The notes under the pieces: generated by a model | Database searches by the model: none | Told to the model about the DNA's origin: nothing | The model's input: the letters and a program-made list of their open reading frames with translations, nothing else | Program-made: the position numbers and the translations under genes | NCBI GenBank assembly: GCA_035532035.1 | Contig: DATKRS010000019.1 | Coordinates: 124,001-188,000 of the forward strand | Length of the DNA: 64,000 bases | Direction of reading: 5' to 3' | Origin: Candidatus Dormiibacterota bacterium | GTDB lineage: Bacteria; Vulcanimicrobiota; Vulcanimicrobiia; Vulcanimicrobiales; Vulcanimicrobiaceae | In this document: positions 5,659 through 24,046 of the stretch, piece by piece | Position numbering within the stretch: the stretch's first letter is position 1 | Layout of the letters: every line of letters starts with the position of its first letter

Positions 5659-7038
5659 CTAGGGGGCGGAGGTCCCTCCTCGAACGCGGACGAGCACGTG
5701 CGCGAGCAGGGCCTGCTCCACGTCCCCGCGTGAAAACGAGGCGACGACGACGTAGGAGCGATCGTGCGAAACGTTCGGCGCGGTGAAGTACGCGATCGAC
5801 TCACCAGGGGCCACGCTCTGCGTCGCAACCGGCGTCCCCGCATCGTCCTCGAAAGTCAAGCGCAGGTTGCGCGGGTGCGCGAGCAGCCGAACCCCGAATG
5901 TCGTCGCGGAGACGACGCGCTCCGCGACGCGAAAAACCTGCCCGGCCGTCAGCACGCCGGAGATGCTGGGCGGCGCCTGCGCGTCGTTCTTTGGCAGCAC
6001 GAGCAGTCCAGCGGAAGCGCGCGCGCTTCTCGCGCCGCTTTGCGCGAGGAGTTCGACGCGATACTGCGTCGGCACGTCAACCGAGGGCGCGGTCAGCGTC
6101 GTCTCTCCGTTGGAAGAGTACGGCGCGCGCTGCAAAGCGATTCCGGATGTGTCGAAGAGCGTCACGCTGCCGCTGCGTGCGTCGGCGACGTACCGCACCG
6201 TCACGCGTTCCCCGCTGCGAACGACGCTCGGATCGGGCTGCAACGCTGCGATCGAGATCGCGCCGGAGTCGGAGATCGAAACGGCGCGCGCCACGAGCTG
6301 TCGACGAACGGTGCCGAACGGGCCGACCACGGCAAGGGTCACGTGATACGCTGCGGCGTTCTTCCTGGTAGGAAATGAGAACGAGCCATTTCTCGCCGGC
6401 AAAACGCCGCCGGCGATCTGCGTACCATCGCTCGTGACGTTGTACTCCGCCGTCCCGACGCCGCCGTAGGCATACGACGCATCGATTCGATCGCCGGCCG
6501 CGACCTCCGTCGGCAGCGTGTACGCCGAGATGGAAGGGAGCATCGATCGCCACGAAATGAGGCCGGCAAGCAGGAGCGACCCGGCGAGCGCGAGCGCCGA
6601 CGCCAATCGTATCGCCGGCGGAGGCGGCACGTCGGCTTCCGCCGTGGCGCGCAGCGACGTGTTCTCCAAATGTAGCGCGATCGTACGCAAGCGGTGCGGA
6701 AGGCGAAGCGGAGCGCGAATCGGAATCCGCATGACTGATTGCGGCTTGATCCAAAAGTACCCGGGTTCCAACGAGACGCTGCCGTGGTGCGTCCAGCCCG
6801 TGACCGAGCAGGCGATCTCGTCGTCCGAACCGTTGACCACTTTGGCAACGAAATCCGACGACATGAAGCCACGGCGCTCGCACTTCAGTGCGGCCATCAC
6901 CGTGCGGTCGCCTGAAACGATCGCGACGAAGCGGCGCGCCTCGTCGGGTGTGACGACCGATCCCAATTGGTAAGCGGTCAGCGGCGCGCGCATCCGCGCC
7001 GCCGGCAGTTGCAGCACCTCTGCCTCCGAGCCCATCAT
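5659..7038 (-). CDS. Hypothetical single-pass membrane protein with Ig-like outer region
   Basis: 459 aa, not matched to a named family. Residues 1-140 look like a cytoplasmic beta-rich domain (charged, no signal peptide). One strong membrane span lies at about 143-163, and residues 170-459 form a beta-rich, Ser/Thr-rich extracytoplasmic part with Ig-like repeats (SGERVTVRYVADARSGSVTLFDTSG and similar). The segment RIPIRAPLRLPHRLRTIALH just before the span is strongly basic. The next gene downstream is etfB, 40 bp away across a hairpin. It could be an envelope sensor or adaptor; this is inference from topology only. The first ATG pair (MMG) at 7038 was chosen. Confidence 0.7.
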   Translation of the reverse strand: MMGSEAEVLQLPAARMRAPLTAYQLGSVVTPDEARRFVAIVSGDRTVMAALKCERRGFMSSDFVAKVVNGSDDEIACSVTGWTHHGSVSLEPGYFWIKPQSVMRIPIRAPLRLPHRLRTIALHLENTSLRATAEADVPPPPAIRLASALALAGSLLLAGLISWRSMLPSISAYTLPTEVAAGDRIDASYAYGGVGTAEYNVTSDGTQIAGGVLPARNGSFSFPTRKNAAAYHVTLAVVGPFGTVRRQLVARAVSISDSGAISIAALQPDPSVVRSGERVTVRYVADARSGSVTLFDTSGIALQRAPYSSNGETTLTAPSVDVPTQYRVELLAQSGARSARASAGLLVLPKNDAQAPPSISGVLTAGQVFRVAERVVSATTFGVRLLAHPRNLRLTFEDDAGTPVATQSVAPGESIAYFTAPNVSHDRSYVVVASFSRGDVEQALLAHVLVRVRGGTSAP

Positions 7039-7100
7039 AATGATAGCTTCGGCGCCCGAAAGAGCGGCGACGGGCGCTTTACCGAAGCTTTACGACGGCG

Positions 7101-7559
7101 TCATCGCAGGCGCGTCAGAACGTAATACGCGACGTCGTGGAGATCGCGCTTGGACATCTTCCAATGCGGCATGATCGGATCGAGCCGCTGGCCGTCGTTG
7201 TCGATCCCGCTCGAGATCGCCCACTCCAGCAAGCCCAAGGTGTATGGGTGCCGCTGTCCCCGAACGAGCGCGCCGTATCGCAGATCCGCACTGACGGCTC
7301 CGCCAGGCAAGCTGACGCCGCCCGATCCGTTCGGGCGATGGCACGCCGCGCAATTCGGGCGCATCGCACGCGGCTGCGCGTGGATACGCTGCCCGCTCGA
7401 ATCGCGTCCGGTGAGGAATATCGCGCGTCCGTTGGCAACCGAGGCCGCGCTTGCTGAGACGTCCGCCGGGGATGGAGTCGGCGAGGCGCCGCGAGACCCC
7501 GAAGAGCACGCCACGATTGCGAGGAGCACGGGGAAGAGCATCGGCAGATAGCGATTCAT
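7101..7559 (-). CDS. Lipoprotein c-type cytochrome
   Basis: 152 aa monoheme cytochrome c. A signal peptide ends in a lipobox (AIVAC, Cys18), then a Ser/Pro linker, then a class I cytochrome fold with the heme site CAACH (Cys70, Cys73, His74) and the probable axial Met130 in PIMPHW. The C-terminal helix (DLHDVAYYVLTRL) is typical. It should sit on the outer face of the inner membrane or in the periplasm and carry electrons; the partner oxidase or reductase is not nearby. A second open frame covers the same DNA but lacks the heme motif. Confidence 0.9.
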   Translation of the reverse strand: MNRYLPMLFPVLLAIVACSSGSRGASPTPSPADVSASAASVANGRAIFLTGRDSSGQRIHAQPRAMRPNCAACHRPNGSGGVSLPGGAVSADLRYGALVRGQRHPYTLGLLEWAISSGIDNDGQRLDPIMPHWKMSKRDLHDVAYYVLTRLR

Positions 7560-7619
7560 GTCGCGCCATTTTTTATCTCCTTGGCGTTGGCCTGCTAGTA
7601 CGTCTCGCGGTTGAGGAGC

Positions 7620-8591
7620 TTACTCCACCGCAAAAAGAGCAATCGCAGTGGCACGTTCGTTGAGCGGCACCAGCCGCTCGTGGTCTCGAGCGACAAATGC
7701 GACGCCGTTCTCTTGCAGAATCGTCGTGATCCATCCGCTTGCGCGGTCCGGAGGCGCACCGAAGGCCAAAACCGGCTCGGCGCCGGCGACCTCCGCTTTG
7801 TAGCGGACGCGATAGTCGAAGAGCTGTCCCATGCCGTAGCGCATCCGGTCTACGGATTGGCGCGCGTCGTTGAGGCTCTTTGCTTCGACCAAGAGCGACT
7901 GATCGCCATAACGCACGAAGAGATCGATATTATTGTTATACCAGCAGCGTCCGCCAAGGCGCTCGGCGTGCCGGCGAATCATGTCCAGCGTGGCATTGTG
8001 ATCTTTGCGCGCTCGCTCTTGCAGCGCCGCAGACTCGTAGATGCTTGGCAGCGCCTTGCCCGATGGTACGTATCCCGTGCCTTCCGGTATCCTGACGGCC
8101 TCGCGAAATGCGTCGCGCGGCGCCTCGACGAGCAACGGTGAATACCCCGCTGAAAGGACGGATTCCGTGGTAACAGGTGGCGCGAACTCTCGGCCGGCTG
8201 AAACGCCGCCGAGCATCAAGATTCGATAGTAGGCCGTTTCACGAATCGGCCGCGCCGCGCTCTGAAATGGCGGCGACGACGCGCTCTCCGTTTCGACGAA
8301 TATGTCGCGTTGCCGCAAGGGCACCGGTCGCTCGAAGGGCTCGTACCAGGCGACGTTCATGAAGTAATGGTCAGATCGTGCCCAATCTTCGAAGGATGTG
8401 CCGAGTATGCCATGACCGACGTAAGTCGACCGCTCTTCCACGCAAGCACCTGTCGCCGGACGGTAGTAGATGAAGCGGTCAAAATCGTTGATGCGCCCAC
8501 GGTACTGCCGAGGGTAATGATAAATCACACCCTCGCGGTCGAGATACTTTGGATCGTCGTGCCAGGTGCGCTGACTCAGAACAACGGGCAT
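7620..8591 (-). CDS. Probable modification-dependent endonuclease (PUA/EVE-like reader plus PD-(D/E)XK-like domain)
   Basis: 323 aa. Residues 10-70 resemble the PUA/EVE-like domain found at the N-terminus of modification-dependent (type IV-like) restriction proteins: GVIYHYPRQY, INDFDRFIYYRP and YVGHGILG reproduce its Y-P, D-x-F-x-Y-Y-R and Y-x-G-x-G-x-I-G pattern. Residues 220-262 carry a nuclease-like core: Asp223 (NIDLFV), Glu236-Ala-Lys238 (LLVEAKS) and a downstream GQLFDYR helix, the order expected of DUF3883-like PD-(D/E)XK enzymes. It lies 64 bp downstream of the nucleotidyltransferase gene on the same strand. Family assignment is from motifs read by eye. No methyltransferase is adjacent, consistent with a stand-alone enzyme that cuts modified DNA. 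Confidence 0.6.
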   Translation of the reverse strand: MPVVLSQRTWHDDPKYLDREGVIYHYPRQYRGRINDFDRFIYYRPATGACVEERSTYVGHGILGTSFEDWARSDHYFMNVAWYEPFERPVPLRQRDIFVETESASSPPFQSAARPIRETAYYRILMLGGVSAGREFAPPVTTESVLSAGYSPLLVEAPRDAFREAVRIPEGTGYVPSGKALPSIYESAALQERARKDHNATLDMIRRHAERLGGRCWYNNNIDLFVRYGDQSLLVEAKSLNDARQSVDRMRYGMGQLFDYRVRYKAEVAGAEPVLAFGAPPDRASGWITTILQENGVAFVARDHERLVPLNERATAIALFAVE

Positions 8592-8655
8592 GAGAGCCTG
8601 CTTTGCTTTCGGTCCTCCAAGTCTTGTCTTGACCCGTACGCGTCGCGAGCCGACT

Positions 8656-9216
8656 TCATCGTAACTTCTGCGCGGCCTTCGCGGCCCGCAACGATTCGTA
8701 AAACTCAGCGAAGCGCGAAGCCTCCCCCTCCTTCTCGCTCCAACGCCTAATACTTGATAGGTTCACGCGGCCGCTCTGTGCCACAGCCATCGCGGCGGCC
8801 AGCGCGCTGCGGTCACCAAAGAAATAGAACGAAGCCAAGCGGTCTCGTACACAATCCGTACGGGACAGAACGGAGAGAATTTCGCTACCGCGTTGGACCG
8901 TGTCGTAGGAGCTAACGAGATCGTTGCCGATTGCAAGCGGACCAGGTGGAAACTCGACTGTGAAGATATTCTTATCGTGGTGATAAGTGCCGCCAATCTC
9001 GTGGTAGCCTAGCTCGCGCAATACATCGCCGGCACGGGCCGTATCGCTGGAAAACGCGATGATGAAATCGGCGTCTTCGGATTGATAGGACTGAGGCGCA
9101 TAATACGTGGCGGCGCTGCCACCTGTAAGGACGGCGACGGTCCAAACATGTGCCAACGCGGTGCAAACCGCGAAGCAGACGTCCTCAAGCGAGGACTCCT
9201 GGGTTATCGGCAACAT
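8656..9216 (-). CDS. Nucleotidyltransferase-fold protein, AbiEii-like putative toxin
   Basis: 186 aa. Near the N-terminus is a polymerase-beta-like nucleotidyltransferase signature: hydrophobic-GGS (VAVLTGGSAAT, residues 28-37) and, 14 residues on, SEDADFII with acidic Asp48 and Asp50 as candidate metal ligands. This is the arrangement of AbiEii/MenT-type toxins and minimal nucleotidyltransferases. The ATG at 9216-9214 follows the regulator's stop codon with one intervening base, so the two are almost certainly translated together. An upstream in-frame start at 9297 would overlap the regulator deeply and is less likely. Composition is slightly AT-richer than the neighbouring core genes. Confidence 0.72.
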   Translation of the reverse strand: MLPITQESSLEDVCFAVCTALAHVWTVAVLTGGSAATYYAPQSYQSEDADFIIAFSSDTARAGDVLRELGYHEIGGTYHHDKNIFTVEFPPGPLAIGNDLVSSYDTVQRGSEILSVLSRTDCVRDRLASFYFFGDRSALAAAMAVAQSGRVNLSSIRRWSEKEGEASRFAEFYESLRAAKAAQKLR

Positions 9217-9217
9217 C

Positions 9218-9538
9218 CTAGAGCGCCTTTCCAGCGCGCCGTGGCCGCCGTCGCAACTCCGAAACGCGGCGCTCCAGGCTGGGGTCGCGCTTTGCATATT
9301 TCAGGAGAAGCGAGCGTAGCTCGTCAGCACCGTAGAATCGCGGGTTGAGGCGAACCTCCCGATTAGCGCCAACAATCCGGCTAACAACAACACCCTCGCG
9401 TTCAAGATCATTCACCATCCGCTGTACGCTTGGCAGCGGTGCGTTGCTGAGCCGCGCGAGCTGCCTTGGGTACGTTTCGCCGAGGAGAGCGACCAGCGTT
9501 AGGACCTTGCTGCGGGAGGTACTTCCGAAGAGCTTCAT
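9218..9538 (-). CDS. Winged-helix DNA-binding regulator, putative antitoxin
   Basis: 106 aa from the ATG at 9538. Contains an ArsR/AbiEi-like winged helix: KVLTLVALLGETYPRQLARL (helices 1-2), PLPSVQRMVNDLEREGVV (recognition helix) and a wing (VVVSRIVGANREVRLN), then a basic C-terminal tail. Alternative ATGs exist at 9547, 9556 and 9586; the last lies inside a palindrome that probably is its operator, and a GATAAT-like -10 at 9562-9557 would place 9556 before the transcript start. It leads a tight operon with the nucleotidyltransferase, the layout of type IV AbiE-like toxin-antitoxin pairs. Autoregulation is inferred. Confidence 0.75.
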   Translation of the reverse strand: MKLFGSTSRSKVLTLVALLGETYPRQLARLSNAPLPSVQRMVNDLEREGVVVSRIVGANREVRLNPRFYGADELRSLLLKYAKRDPSLERRVSELRRRPRRAGKAL

Positions 9539-9562
9539 GGGAACCATGCTTGCCATATTATC

Positions 9563-9590
9563 AAAAATGTGGTCAGTTGACCACATTTTT
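9563..9590. promoter_or_regulatory. Perfect 28-bp palindrome, probable operator of the winged-helix gene
   Basis: AAAAATGTGGTCA (9563-9575) and TGACCACATTTTT (9578-9590) are exact inverted copies separated by 2 nt. A GATAAT-like -10 element on the minus strand lies directly next to it (9562-9557), so a bound dimer would block the promoter. The core TGTGGTCA-N2-TGACCACA has the length of a winged-helix dimer site. Confidence 0.7.
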
Positions 9591-9768
9591 GTTGCTATTC
9601 CGAAGTCGCCTGGAGGTTCTCCAACGTTAGATCCTCAAGCTACGCCCCACGTGATCTCGGGGCCGAGGCGCGGGCCGTCGAGGCGCTCCTGAAGTGCCAC
9701 GGCAACCAAATGTCAACCGCGCCGCTTATGGCGCTACGGAAACCGCGTGGTTATGCGTCTTTCGGTTA
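9591..9768. other. Intergenic stretch between island and tRNA-Leu
   Basis: No coding region or duplicated tRNA 3' end was found. A TTGACA on the minus strand (9716-9711) has no convincing -10 at the right distance. Confidence 0.4.
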
Positions 9769-9852
9769 TGGGATGGCCGGGAGTCGAACCCGGACGTCCT
9801 TTCGGACTGCAAATTTTAAGTCTGCTGTGTCTGCCTATTCCACCACCATCCC
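9769..9852 (-). tRNA. tRNA-Leu (anticodon TAA)
   Basis: 84 nt on the minus strand. The acceptor GGGATGG pairs with CCATCCC, followed by discriminator A. The D-arm GGTGGAATAGGCAGACAC, a 7-nt anticodon loop CTTAAAA giving UAA, the long class II variable arm with a GAAA loop, and the T-loop GGTTCGACTCC are all present. CCA is not encoded. Its 3' end faces the accessory island. Confidence 0.95.
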
Positions 9853-9865
9853 GTATCTCTCCGCG

Positions 9866-10108
9866 TTACTGCTGGTACCGCTCGACGATGTCGGGCGGAC
9901 GCAGTGACGTCGCGCCAGGATCCTGCTGCGCGTCGCGGCGCGCCCGACGCTGACGCAAGAGGTCCCAATACTGGTCGAGCTTCACCTCGATCGTGTGCAG
10001 GCGCTCGGCATCTGACGGCGTCAGCGCCGCACGTTCGCCGTGCTCGAGCAGGCGATGCTCCTCCGCGATGAGGTCTTCGATGTGGCTGCGGATCTGCGTG
10101 TCGTTCAT
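9866..10108 (-). CDS. DUF2630 family small helical protein
   Basis: 80 aa from the ATG at 10108-10106 (MNDTQIRSHIEDLIAEEHRL). The HIxxLVxEEHxL opening, LTPSDAERLHTIEVKLDQYWDLLRQR helix and basic tail are the DUF2630 pattern; the function is unknown. Its start overlaps the ppx stop as ATGA, so the genes are coupled. It is the last gene of the long hrcA-to-ppx cluster, 14 bp before tRNA-Leu. Confidence 0.85.
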   Translation of the reverse strand: MNDTQIRSHIEDLIAEEHRLLEHGERAALTPSDAERLHTIEVKLDQYWDLLRQRRARRDAQQDPGATSLRPPDIVERYQQ

Positions 10109-11040
10109 GATTCTTCCTCGGCTCCCCAATCGACGATTTCTCTCTCGCGCTCCTGCAGAAGTACCCCGAGCAGTAGGTCTCCGGGCGCGATGACGGCGCT
10201 GCGCTTACCGACCATCTCCATCGCCGTCGCGAGAAGGATGATGCCTGCGGGCAAGATGTCCGCCCGCTGCGGGCGCATTCCGGGAAGGCTCTTGCGCTGC
10301 TCCAGCTCGAGCGCGCAGAGGCGCTCGAGCACGCTCCCCAGCGTCGTGCGCGTGATCTCCGGCGCTCGCTCGGCGCTCATACCGGCAACAGCCGCCGTCG
10401 TCGTCGCACTGCCGCCAACGAACAGCAGGCGGTCGATGTGGGGCTCGCCGTGCATCTGGGCGAGAGCTTGCGCAGCGATCCGAACCCCGTCGGCGAGGCT
10501 CTGCCCGTCGACGGGACCGCAACGTCCGGAGAGCGCGGGCAACTGCTCCGTCAGCCGCACGGCGCCGATTTCGTACGAGTGCACGGACGCTACATCGTTT
10601 GACGTGCCGACGGCGTACTCGGTGCTACCGCCGCCGATGTCGACCACGCCGCTACGCCCCTGAAACGGCGGAAGGGAACCGACCGCTCCACGGAACGACG
10701 CGTGCGCCTCTTCTTCACCCGAGAGAATGCGCATATCGGCACCCGTAGCCGTACGTACGCGCTGCGCGAACTCTTGTGCGTTCTCCGCACGACGCAACGC
10801 ACTCGTTGCAACGACGAGCACCTTCTCGCAGCGATCGCGCGCTCCGTTCGCATACTCGCGCAGCACGGAAATCGTACGCGCCATCGCGTCATCGCCGAGT
10901 TTTCCAGACTCGCCGAGCCCTTCTCCCACGCGCGTGCCGACGGTTCGCGCGAGCTCCACGTGAGGAATCGGCTGGCGCATGTCGGCAACGAGCATGCGCG
11001 TCGAGTTCGTGCCGATCGAGAGCACCGCGTGGCGTCCCAT
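10105..11040 (-). CDS. ppx: Ppx/GppA family exopolyphosphatase
   Basis: 311 aa from the ATG at 11040. ASKHA-fold phosphatase that removes terminal phosphates from polyphosphate and/or pppGpp. Motifs: the N-terminal phosphate-1 loop (LSIGTNSTRMLVAD), the catalytic region ILSGEEEAHASFRGAV, phosphate-2 (VVDIGGGSTEYAVG) and LFVGGSATTTAAV. At this length it has only the core two-subdomain phosphatase, without the HD-like C-terminal domain of E. coli Ppx. An earlier start at 11070 would overlap the S1 gene. It ends overlapping the DUF2630 gene. Confidence 0.92.
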   Translation of the reverse strand: MGRHAVLSIGTNSTRMLVADMRQPIPHVELARTVGTRVGEGLGESGKLGDDAMARTISVLREYANGARDRCEKVLVVATSALRRAENAQEFAQRVRTATGADMRILSGEEEAHASFRGAVGSLPPFQGRSGVVDIGGGSTEYAVGTSNDVASVHSYEIGAVRLTEQLPALSGRCGPVDGQSLADGVRIAAQALAQMHGEPHIDRLLFVGGSATTTAAVAGMSAERAPEITRTTLGSVLERLCALELEQRKSLPGMRPQRADILPAGIILLATAMEMVGKRSAVIAPGDLLLGVLLQEREREIVDWGAEEES

Positions 11041-23092: not shown

Positions 23093-24046
23093 ATGCTCGT
23101 AAAGCCTGCTGCGTATTCTGACTCGCGGGTATCCCGCATACAGTGGCGCGACCGTACCGGCTTCTCACCGGCTTCCCGCGCAAGCTTACGCTTCCAGGAT
23201 TGTCGGCGCGCGGGAGCCTTCCTGCTGCTTCTCGCGCTCTGCGCATGCGCGGTGCCGCACGAACGCCACGTCGCGTCGCAGCAGCGGCGCGTCATCGCGC
23301 TCATGCCCTCTTTCGTCGAGGACCTCGTGGCGCTGGGCGCCGCGGGGCGGATCGTCGGCGTTTCGTCGGGAACTGGCGACGTCCCGGCCGTGCGCCGCGT
23401 GCCCATTGTCGCCGACTTTGCCAGCGTCGACGTCGAGCGCATCGTCGAACTGCATCCCGACGTCGTGCTCGCCATCCCCGCGCAGATGCGTTTTCTCGTG
23501 CCGCTGCAACGCGCCGGGATCGACGTCGAGACGCTCCCGGACGACTCGTACGACGACATCTTCGTCGATCTGCGGCGAATCGGCGCGCTCACGGGCCGCG
23601 AGCGCGAGGCGGCAGCCGAGATCAAGCGACTTCAGCAAGAGACCTTGCGCCTTACGCGCAGCGAGGCGCGTTTTGCGCGCCCGCCGTCCATCTTCGTCGT
23701 CATCGCAACGCAGCCGATTTGGACGGCCGGCGAAGGCTCCTATATCGCCACGCTCTTGCGTCTGGCCGGCGCGCGCAATGCCGCTCACAAGCTCGGCGCC
23801 GCGTACGGCGAGTATAGCGCCGAGGCACTCTTGCGCGATCAGCCCGATGCCATCGTCACCGATCCATCGACCGAAATCCGCAGCGTCGAAGGGCGCGAGC
23901 CCTGGCGTAGCCTTCGCGCCATACGCCGGCATCGCGTCTTCGTAATCCCGGACGCGTCGCTGCTCGAGCGCCCGGGGCCGCGCTACGTCGAGGGCCTCGC
24001 GTGGCTGATTAGCGCTTTTCGTAAACTCAATCGAATAGCTCGGTGA
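23093..24046 (+). CDS. btuF: Cobalamin-type periplasmic binding protein (BtuF-like)
   Basis: Class III (helical-backbone) binding protein: RVIALMPSFVEDLVALGAAGRIVGVS, DVERIVELHPDVVLAIPAQM, TWTAGEGSYI-type loop and a conserved end (RPGPRYVEGLAWLISAF). A hydrophobic LLLLALCAC segment preceded by RR looks like a lipoprotein signal. The only canonical in-frame start near it is the ATG at 23093, which gives a 40-residue lead and means the first 110 bp lie antisense to the cobalamin riboswitch. A closer, non-standard start is possible. The 3' end overlaps the convergent helicase gene by 20 bp. Confidence 0.82.
   Translation: MLVKPAAYSDSRVSRIQWRDRTGFSPASRASLRFQDCRRAGAFLLLLALCACAVPHERHVASQQRRVIALMPSFVEDLVALGAAGRIVGVSSGTGDVPAVRRVPIVADFASVDVERIVELHPDVVLAIPAQMRFLVPLQRAGIDVETLPDDSYDDIFVDLRRIGALTGREREAAAEIKRLQQETLRLTRSEARFARPPSIFVVIATQPIWTAGEGSYIATLLRLAGARNAAHKLGAAYGEYSAEALLRDQPDAIVTDPSTEIRSVEGREPWRSLRAIRRHRVFVIPDASLLERPGPRYVEGLAWLISAFRKLNRIAR
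23100..23215 (-). ncRNA. Cobalamin riboswitch upstream of the BtuB-like gene
   Basis: On the minus strand the conserved core reads GGGAAGCCGGTGAGAAGCC, then GGTCGCGCCACTGTATGCGG (B12-box region), then CGAGTCAGAATACG, in the order of the Rfam cobalamin aptamer. The end of the aptamer is about 40 nt before the receptor's Shine-Dalgarno. Adenosylcobalamin binding is expected to reduce receptor expression. Outer boundaries are approximate. Confidence 0.93.

Follow-up and report, generated by a model that had tools for sequence, protein, structure and literature searches.

Two described two-gene systems, MenAT1 of Mycobacterium tuberculosis and AbiE, and one class already in the literature as putative type IV restriction endonucleases, the EVE-PD-(D/E)XK proteins (Bell et al. 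2020, PMC7641849), are among the closest known counterparts of the locus considered here. The locus lies in a 64,000-nucleotide stretch of contig DATKRS010000019.1 (positions 124,001 to 188,000; G000:C19:124001-188000), hereafter the window, from the 2.25-Mb genome, in 38 contigs, of an uncultured member of the Eremiobacterota. It consists of three consecutive genes, predicted to encode a winged helix-turn-helix (wHTH) protein, a nucleotidyltransferase (NTase), and a nuclease.

In MenAT1, the toxin MenT1 (Rv0078A) is paired with MenA1 (Rv0078B), a 68-amino-acid (aa) helical protein with no wHTH (PMC10435456, PMC11375011). The MenT1 catalytic set is T39/D41/K137/D152. In MenT toxins, a Ser/Thr lies two positions ahead of the catalytic Asp, specifically T39/D41 in MenT1 and S78/D80 in MenT3 (PMC10435456), and in MenT1, antitoxin binding goes with phosphorylation of this residue (PMC11375011). 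In AbiE, the C-terminal domain of AbiEi suffices for neutralization, and AbiEii carries an Arg in motif II (R63), a Lys in motif III, and a +DxxD motif IV (PMC3985639). Finally, in the EVE-HNH protein VcaM4I, the EVE domain flips 5-methylcytosine/5-hydroxymethylcytosine (5mC/5hmC) (PMC7897488).

Our analysis indicates that the locus probably comprises two independent accessory modules lying side by side: a probable NTase toxin–antitoxin pair and a probable restriction enzyme of type IV that stands alone. Each belongs to a broadly known kind of system. Direct support comes from the gene layout, the predicted folds, the conserved residues, the conservation of the operator, the linkage of the pair, and the independent distribution of the nuclease. 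A sequence-only reading had described the genes as a joint defense unit coupling an NTase toxin to cleavage of modified DNA. Its layout holds, and its domain calls largely do, the folds as predictions; its appeal to AbiE and its joint unit are not supported.

Gene layout and distribution of the nuclease

The three genes lie in a row on the minus strand, as that reading had described. A single base (9217) separates the wHTH stop codon (9218-9220) from the NTase ATG, and 64 bp separate the NTase stop codon from the nuclease ATG. The cluster is, as also claimed, richer in AT than its neighbors (GC ~0.59-0.60 versus ~0.65): GC is 0.588-0.60 across 7.5-9.5 kb and 0.65-0.67 in the surroundings. The features of the row are as follows.

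9562-9591, no strand assigned: palindrome with 14-bp arms and a 2-nt loop, presumed operator of the pair, overlapping the presumed promoter
9557-9562, minus strand: GATAAT, a -10-like box abutting the operator, presumed promoter element
9218-9586, minus strand: wHTH open reading frame (ORF) as listed, a reading-frame call
9218-9544, minus strand: wHTH protein, ~106-108 aa from M15/M17, with a basic tail; presumed autorepressor and antitoxin
8656-9216, minus strand: MenT1-like NTase, 186 aa, ATG at 9216; presumed toxin
8592-8655, minus strand: 64-bp gap between NTase and nuclease
7620-8591, minus strand: 323-aa EVE-PD-(D/E)XK protein, predicted to be a type IV (modification-dependent) restriction endonuclease; relatives have the gene on its own

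Two of the gene starts were revised. The annotated wHTH start, 9586, falls within the palindrome. Translation probably begins at M15 or M17 instead, because the palindrome, the GATAAT-like box, and the ATGs at 9544 and 9538 are common to four close relatives. Similarly, the listed NTase ORF starts at 9297, and its first 27 residues are an out-of-frame overlap with the wHTH gene; matches of this ORF to TAL effectors were rejected as an artifact of those residues.

The nuclease is distributed independently of the pair. We compared 149 genomes of the phylum Eremiobacterota, and close relatives of the nuclease carry the label Candidatus Eremiobacterota. Nuclease relatives occur in 34 of the 149 genomes. 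For 31 further copies that are full or nearly so, and for 4 fragments, up to ~8 kb of flanking DNA in either direction was examined, with some contigs ending sooner; tblastn and sensitive profile searches revealed a wHTH or NTase relative near none of these copies or fragments. Reciprocally, profile searches placed a nuclease beside none of 58 other pair-related loci, apart from the vestige described below. Nuclease and NTase share a genome 12 times, where chance predicts 11.2 (one-sided Fisher P 0.44), and only the window genome, among the 149, carries the intact trio. The survey of trio conservation that the sequence-only reading had proposed thus finds the nuclease without the pair in 31 of 31 other full or nearly full copies, an outcome that the reading itself had named as refuting its joint unit and that agrees with the alternative it had allowed, that the nuclease is an independent neighbor.

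The genes around the nuclease differ between genomes and are housekeeping genes. One position recurs, with an RlmN-like gene upstream and, in several copies, a glycyl-tRNA-synthetase-like gene downstream (names read from the sequences). Decayed nuclease remnants are also present, e.g., in genomes G083 and G084, where they lie behind the same RlmN-like gene. Across the 36 loci, housekeeping genes are the only ones to recur beside the nuclease. Lone nuclease genes also occupy several unrelated housekeeping sites (L034-L068), with decayed copies at some of them and no visible mobile element.

Two observations weigh against full independence of the modules. First, genome G043, of genus g5, carries a 55-bp nuclease vestige behind an intact pair (L131:1153-1207; 84% identical, E ~1e-9). 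The vestige corresponds to window positions 8615-8561, which cover the last part of the gap and ~ten codons at the nuclease start, and is now fused to another reading frame. The alignment indicates that G043 deleted its nuclease and kept its pair intact. Thus, a second genus once had the pair-then-nuclease order, which predates the window genome. Second, the nearest relatives of both modules belong to this one genus, g5, which is compatible with joint transfer: the pairs of G043 and the window share 82% DNA identity, and the nuclease module is 78.5% identical to its g5 relatives. Together, the vestige and the g5 relatives suggest that the trio may have been transferred jointly; they do not indicate functional dependence.

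These same observations bear on the possibility that the trio is a single defense operon, in which an autoregulated wHTH protein would control both toxin and nuclease, and failed restriction or loss of the repressor would trigger growth arrest as a second line of defense. The shared strand, the 1- and 64-bp gaps, and the common lower GC are what such an operon would show. A scan of the 64-bp gap (8592-8655) found no promoter-like or terminator-like site, the gene order matches that of the G043 vestige, and both modules have diverged to a similar degree from their g5 relatives. Against it, none of the other genomes has the intact trio, co-occurrence is at the level of chance, 31 nuclease copies lack the pair, and G043 shed the nuclease while retaining the pair. 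We consider the single operon improbable. A more specific version posits a two-tier defense operon in the window lineage and, once, in G043: the EVE-guided nuclease would cut modified phage DNA, and the MenT-like pair, as a back-up within the same autoregulated operon, would arrest the cell if restriction fails. To this version, we give scant credence.

The wHTH-NTase pair and its palindrome

NTase relatives occur in 49 and wHTH relatives in 55 of the 149 genomes, and in 46 pair loci the two genes are adjacent and both complete or nearly so. The pair is likewise adjacent outside the phylum, in Bdellovibrio, Sulfurospirillum, Sulfurimonas, and on Leptospira plasmids. Overall, it spans four phyla and both chromosomes and plasmids. 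The linkage is stable, the regulator gene comes first, and many copies have a palindrome at their promoter. On a Bdellovibrio plasmid (AP029177.1; L171:4545-5474), a gene of the phage integrase family lies 7 bp behind the pair. A phage origin is at most a possibility: viral contigs and phage records yielded no relatives.

The two genes decay unequally. Nine Eremiobacterota loci (L166, L168, L169, L174, L175, L176, L178, L179, and L180) combine an intact wHTH gene with a broken or missing NTase, the latter simply not recognizable in L168, L169, and L174. No intact NTase accompanies a broken wHTH gene among the Eremiobacterota pair loci examined. If breaks were proportional to gene length, nine of nine in the NTase would have P ~0.017, a figure that ignores relatedness and assembly error. 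Loss of the NTase with retention of the wHTH gene is the pattern expected of an antidote–toxin pair. The pair looks like a previously undescribed toxin–antitoxin family.

The wHTH protein, 106-122 aa long, is a winged helix with a short basic tail and no further part. The call of a winged-helix protein for the first gene, here a compact one, is borne out by weak Pfam matches to HTH_IclR/TrmB. The C terminus reads L-R-x-R-P-R-R-x-G-K-x-L, in which R112, R114, P115, R116, and K120 are identical in 41 of 41 aligned sequences; across these sequences, the tail is more conserved than the rest of the protein. This RRPRR-type tail recurs, slightly altered, in the Bdellovibrio, Sulfurospirillum, Sulfurimonas, and Leptospira copies.

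The second gene has the predicted fold of an NTase, as the sequence-only reading had it. Its structure model (predicted local distance difference test [pLDDT] score 96) matches MenT1 best, with Z 12.6 over 168 of 186 residues, root-mean-square deviation 4.3, and Foldseek E 5e-5, and the match covers the helical C-terminal part of MenT1. The protein carries the polymerase-beta-type motif GGS-x13-D48-x-D50 and a conserved strand, [E/D]FPxGPLxxG. Both D48 and S46, two residues ahead of it, are invariant. By motif register rather than superposition, S46 and D48 would correspond to the MenT phosphoacceptor Ser/Thr and Asp; candidates for the MenT1 K137 and D152 equivalents, assigned by motif alone, are R126 and D135. 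The NTase has no Pfam, NCBIfam, or PADLOC match, and it matches phrog_13263 (E 2.7e-25), which has no annotated function.

MenAT1 and the window pair are thus alike in NTase size and predicted fold, in the small partner, and, again by register, in the Ser/Thr before the first catalytic Asp (T39 versus S46). They differ in the partner, which in the window is a winged helix with a basic tail. No sequence-level match joins the window NTase to MenT1, and the motif II Arg is replaced by Tyr.

A reading without a toxin has to be weighed at this point. The pair could be a small autoregulated operon whose NTase nucleotidylates RNA or small molecules and whose wHTH protein is a simple repressor. MenT1 is the best fold match of the NTase, though it is tied within 1 Z unit with a fungal NTase-like protein (5uvd, Z 12.1) and stands only ~1.4 Z above ANT(2'')-Ia (Z 11.2); that enzyme and LnuA (Z 10.2), aminoglycoside/lincosamide nucleotidyltransferases, follow closely and suit a nontoxic role. 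So do the AbiEii-type motifs, in which an invariant Tyr (Y44) stands, by register, in place of R63 of motif II, and Arg probably in place of the Lys of motif III. Motif IV is only partly recognizable (D135); it and the motif III residue were placed by register alone. One locus fits an antidote–toxin pair poorly: on the Leptospira noguchii plasmid NZ_CP091961.1 (L220:2578-3456), the wHTH gene is apparently frameshifted and the NTase intact. Set against this reading are the rank of MenT1 as best fold match, the invariance of S46 at the presumed phosphoacceptor position, the preferential loss of the NTase, the patchy distribution and plasmid carriage of the pair, and the phage integrase beside the Bdellovibrio copy. 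On balance, we regard a nontoxic operon as unlikely, though it keeps appreciable weight, and we favor the toxin–antitoxin interpretation.

The sequence-only reading had likened the first two genes to AbiEi and AbiEii. The resemblance lies in a wHTH regulator followed by an NTase, an inverted repeat at the promoter, and the motif hG[G/S]...DxD. The window wHTH protein, however, is only about half as long as AbiEi and does not have its C-terminal antitoxin domain; the NTase is short and is not a DUF1814 (COG2253) protein; and one palindrome stands where AbiE has two 23-bp repeats. DUF1814 was not found in a Pfam scan of 31 NTase homologs. AbiE membership was therefore ruled out by profile, length, and motif tests, given no DUF1814, no two-domain COG5340 protein, and Y44 in place of R63.

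A related proposal, which sees in the pair a decayed or diverged form of HEPN-MNT (PDC-M05) or AbiE, would explain the polymerase-beta-like motif and a match of the wHTH protein to the N terminus of PADLOC PDC-M05A (5.2e-6). HEPN-MNT systems share a minimal NTase with the window pair; they differ from it in that its wHTH and NTase are separate proteins and it has no HEPN partner. The neighborhood survey of pair loci found no recurrent third gene, HEPN included, beside the pair and largely refutes the proposal; the failure to match DUF1814 or COG5340 or to find an AbiEi C-terminal domain also counts against it. Identity with PDC-M05/HEPN-MNT was rejected because the similarity is confined to the wHTH. 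We judge this proposal very improbable.

The palindrome that the sequence-only reading had placed at the head of the row has perfect 14-bp arms; its role as operator is presumed. At 9562-9591, its 30 bp read CAAAAATGTGGTCA-AC-TGACCACATTTTTG. It scores 14, versus a best of 8 among 20 shuffles of the same region, and a single copy is present in the window (0.06 expected, 3 mismatches allowed) and in the 2.25-Mb genome as a whole. The palindrome, the GATAAT-like box, and the start codons are kept in four close relatives, the window included, and the DNA upstream of the palindrome is unalignable. The box is GATAAT in the window, G043, and G049 and GATACT in G051. Because the palindrome is kept in close relatives and occurs only here in the genome, it fits the target of a local autorepressor that would bind it. 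Several more distant pair loci have other palindromes with similar half-sites at similar positions (e.g., GTAGTCA/TGACTAC, ATGTGATCA/TGATCACAT, and TTGGTCA/TGACCAA), and those of G033, G094, G112, G126, and G037, among others, outscore all shuffles. Counting against a general operator, many pair loci have no palindrome detectable above shuffles.

The predicted EVE-PD-(D/E)XK nuclease

The third gene resembles the EVE-PD-(D/E)XK class and VcaM4I in joining an N-terminal EVE domain to a C-terminal nuclease in one chain. Its two predicted domains are as follows.

8202-8591, minus strand: EVE/PUA-like domain, residues 1-130, Z ~10 to EVE proteins
7620-8042, minus strand: PD-(D/E)XK domain, ~residues 184-323, with D223/E236/K238, from alignment and fold matches

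An alignment of 28 sequences, built from genome loci only, was used for structure prediction. The resulting AlphaFold2 model has pLDDT 83.8 and a predicted template modeling score (pTM) of 0.73, with a poorly modeled segment at ~131-183. The assignment of the N terminus to EVE is firm at the level of the model, in line with the EVE/PUA-like fold named in the sequence-only reading: residues 1-130 match Atu2648 (Z 10.8), the S. marinus McrB N-domain (Z 10.6), and EVE-HNH VcaM4I (Z 10.1). The N terminus also matches phrog_8048, an HNH endonuclease N terminus (E 0.0026). The PD-(D/E)XK call, likewise upheld, rests on both a modest fold match and an invariant triad. D223 and E236-x-K238 are invariant in 28 of 28 sequences, in the register of a PD-(D/E)XK site, and a stretch RMRYGxGQLxDY is conserved. 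In structure comparisons, the predicted C-terminal part resembles AF1548 (Z 8.1), and Foldseek adds matches to XisH and Hjc; relatives of the nuclease give weak XisH/Hjc Pfam matches. A Z of 8.1 is modest, and this tells against the nuclease assignment.

Profile libraries are nearly blank for this protein. It differs from the EVE-PD-(D/E)XK class in having no detectable Pfam EVE match and in its poorly modeled middle segment, and sequence-profile searches of the PDB returned nothing significant. Matches to YTH, ASCH, DrmA, and CARF nuclease structures were taken as superfamily neighbors only. Within the collections searched, full-length relatives occur only in Eremiobacterota. A methyltransferase is not among the genes recurring beside the nuclease across the 36 loci; neighbors seen once or twice were not all annotated. 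On a Rhodococcus opacus plasmid (NZ_CP082159.1; L173:6001-6813), the same EVE-like N terminus is joined to a DUF3883/NO VEIN C-terminal domain, and this gene adjoins genes for a GIY-YIG nuclease, a DUF262 protein, and a restriction endonuclease.

Genomic setting, proposed mechanism, and significance

Directly upstream of the cluster is a tRNA gene that the sequence-only reading had not mentioned.

9769-9852, minus strand: tRNA-Leu(UAA), border of the variable region carrying the cluster

The DNA downstream of this tRNA gene varies between members of the genus. From the tRNA gene to a cytochrome c gene, the window has 2.2 kb. In G110, only ~0.55 kb lie between tRNA-Leu and the next shared gene, and other content follows it in G113 (4.7 kb) and G116 (5.5 kb). 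In G049, of genus g5, a pair whose NTase is truncated lies at this tRNA-Leu. A repeat search of 7000-10200 found no direct repeat of the tRNA 3' end, and no integrase was recognized by eye among the reading frames at 4-14 kb. The cluster belongs to the accessory DNA of a variable site and is not recognizable as an integrative element.

The tRNA-Leu(UAA) gene is itself variable. Nothing interrupts it in the window, G114, or G111, and it is split between anticodon positions 34 and 35 by a conserved ~220-240 nt insert in five relatives of genera g1 and g5 (L166:3412-3634, L204:1246-1481, L210:3328-3568, L211:4044-4274, and L208:2360-2586). The insert has group-I-intron-like core motifs and a weak, subthreshold Rfam Intron_gpI match (18.5 bits, E 0.023). 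Its position is that of the cyanobacterial/plastid trnL group I intron. Possibly, the insert is an old intron lost repeatedly in Eremiobacterota. Elsewhere in the window, 23113-23176 on the minus strand gives a weak cobalamin riboswitch match (33.9 bits, cutoff 31.5).

The mechanism we infer for the two modules spans DNA binding, toxicity, neutralization, a tRNA target, and modified-DNA cleavage. The wHTH protein would bind the palindrome over the promoter and repress the two-gene operon. Probably via its invariant arginine-rich tail, it would hold the MenT1-like NTase inactive. Upon loss of the wHTH protein, the NTase would add nucleotides to an essential RNA; the analogy to MenT makes tRNA acceptor ends the likeliest target. 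The nuclease domain would cut close to a modified base that the EVE domain flips out, as in a type IV enzyme with no need of a partner methylase. In the window genome, the nuclease may be transcribed with the pair, yet it would not depend on it.

The nuclease would add a further clade of EVE-PD-(D/E)XK proteins, from a phylum with scarcely mapped antiviral systems. As a lead, the pair is more useful: it is widespread, it spans four phyla, and none of Pfam, NCBIfam, or PADLOC names it at cutoff. If the NTase is toxic and the wHTH protein neutralizes it, the pair would represent an additional type of partner for MenT-like toxins, and the RRPRR-type tail would be the obvious place to seek the blocking mechanism.

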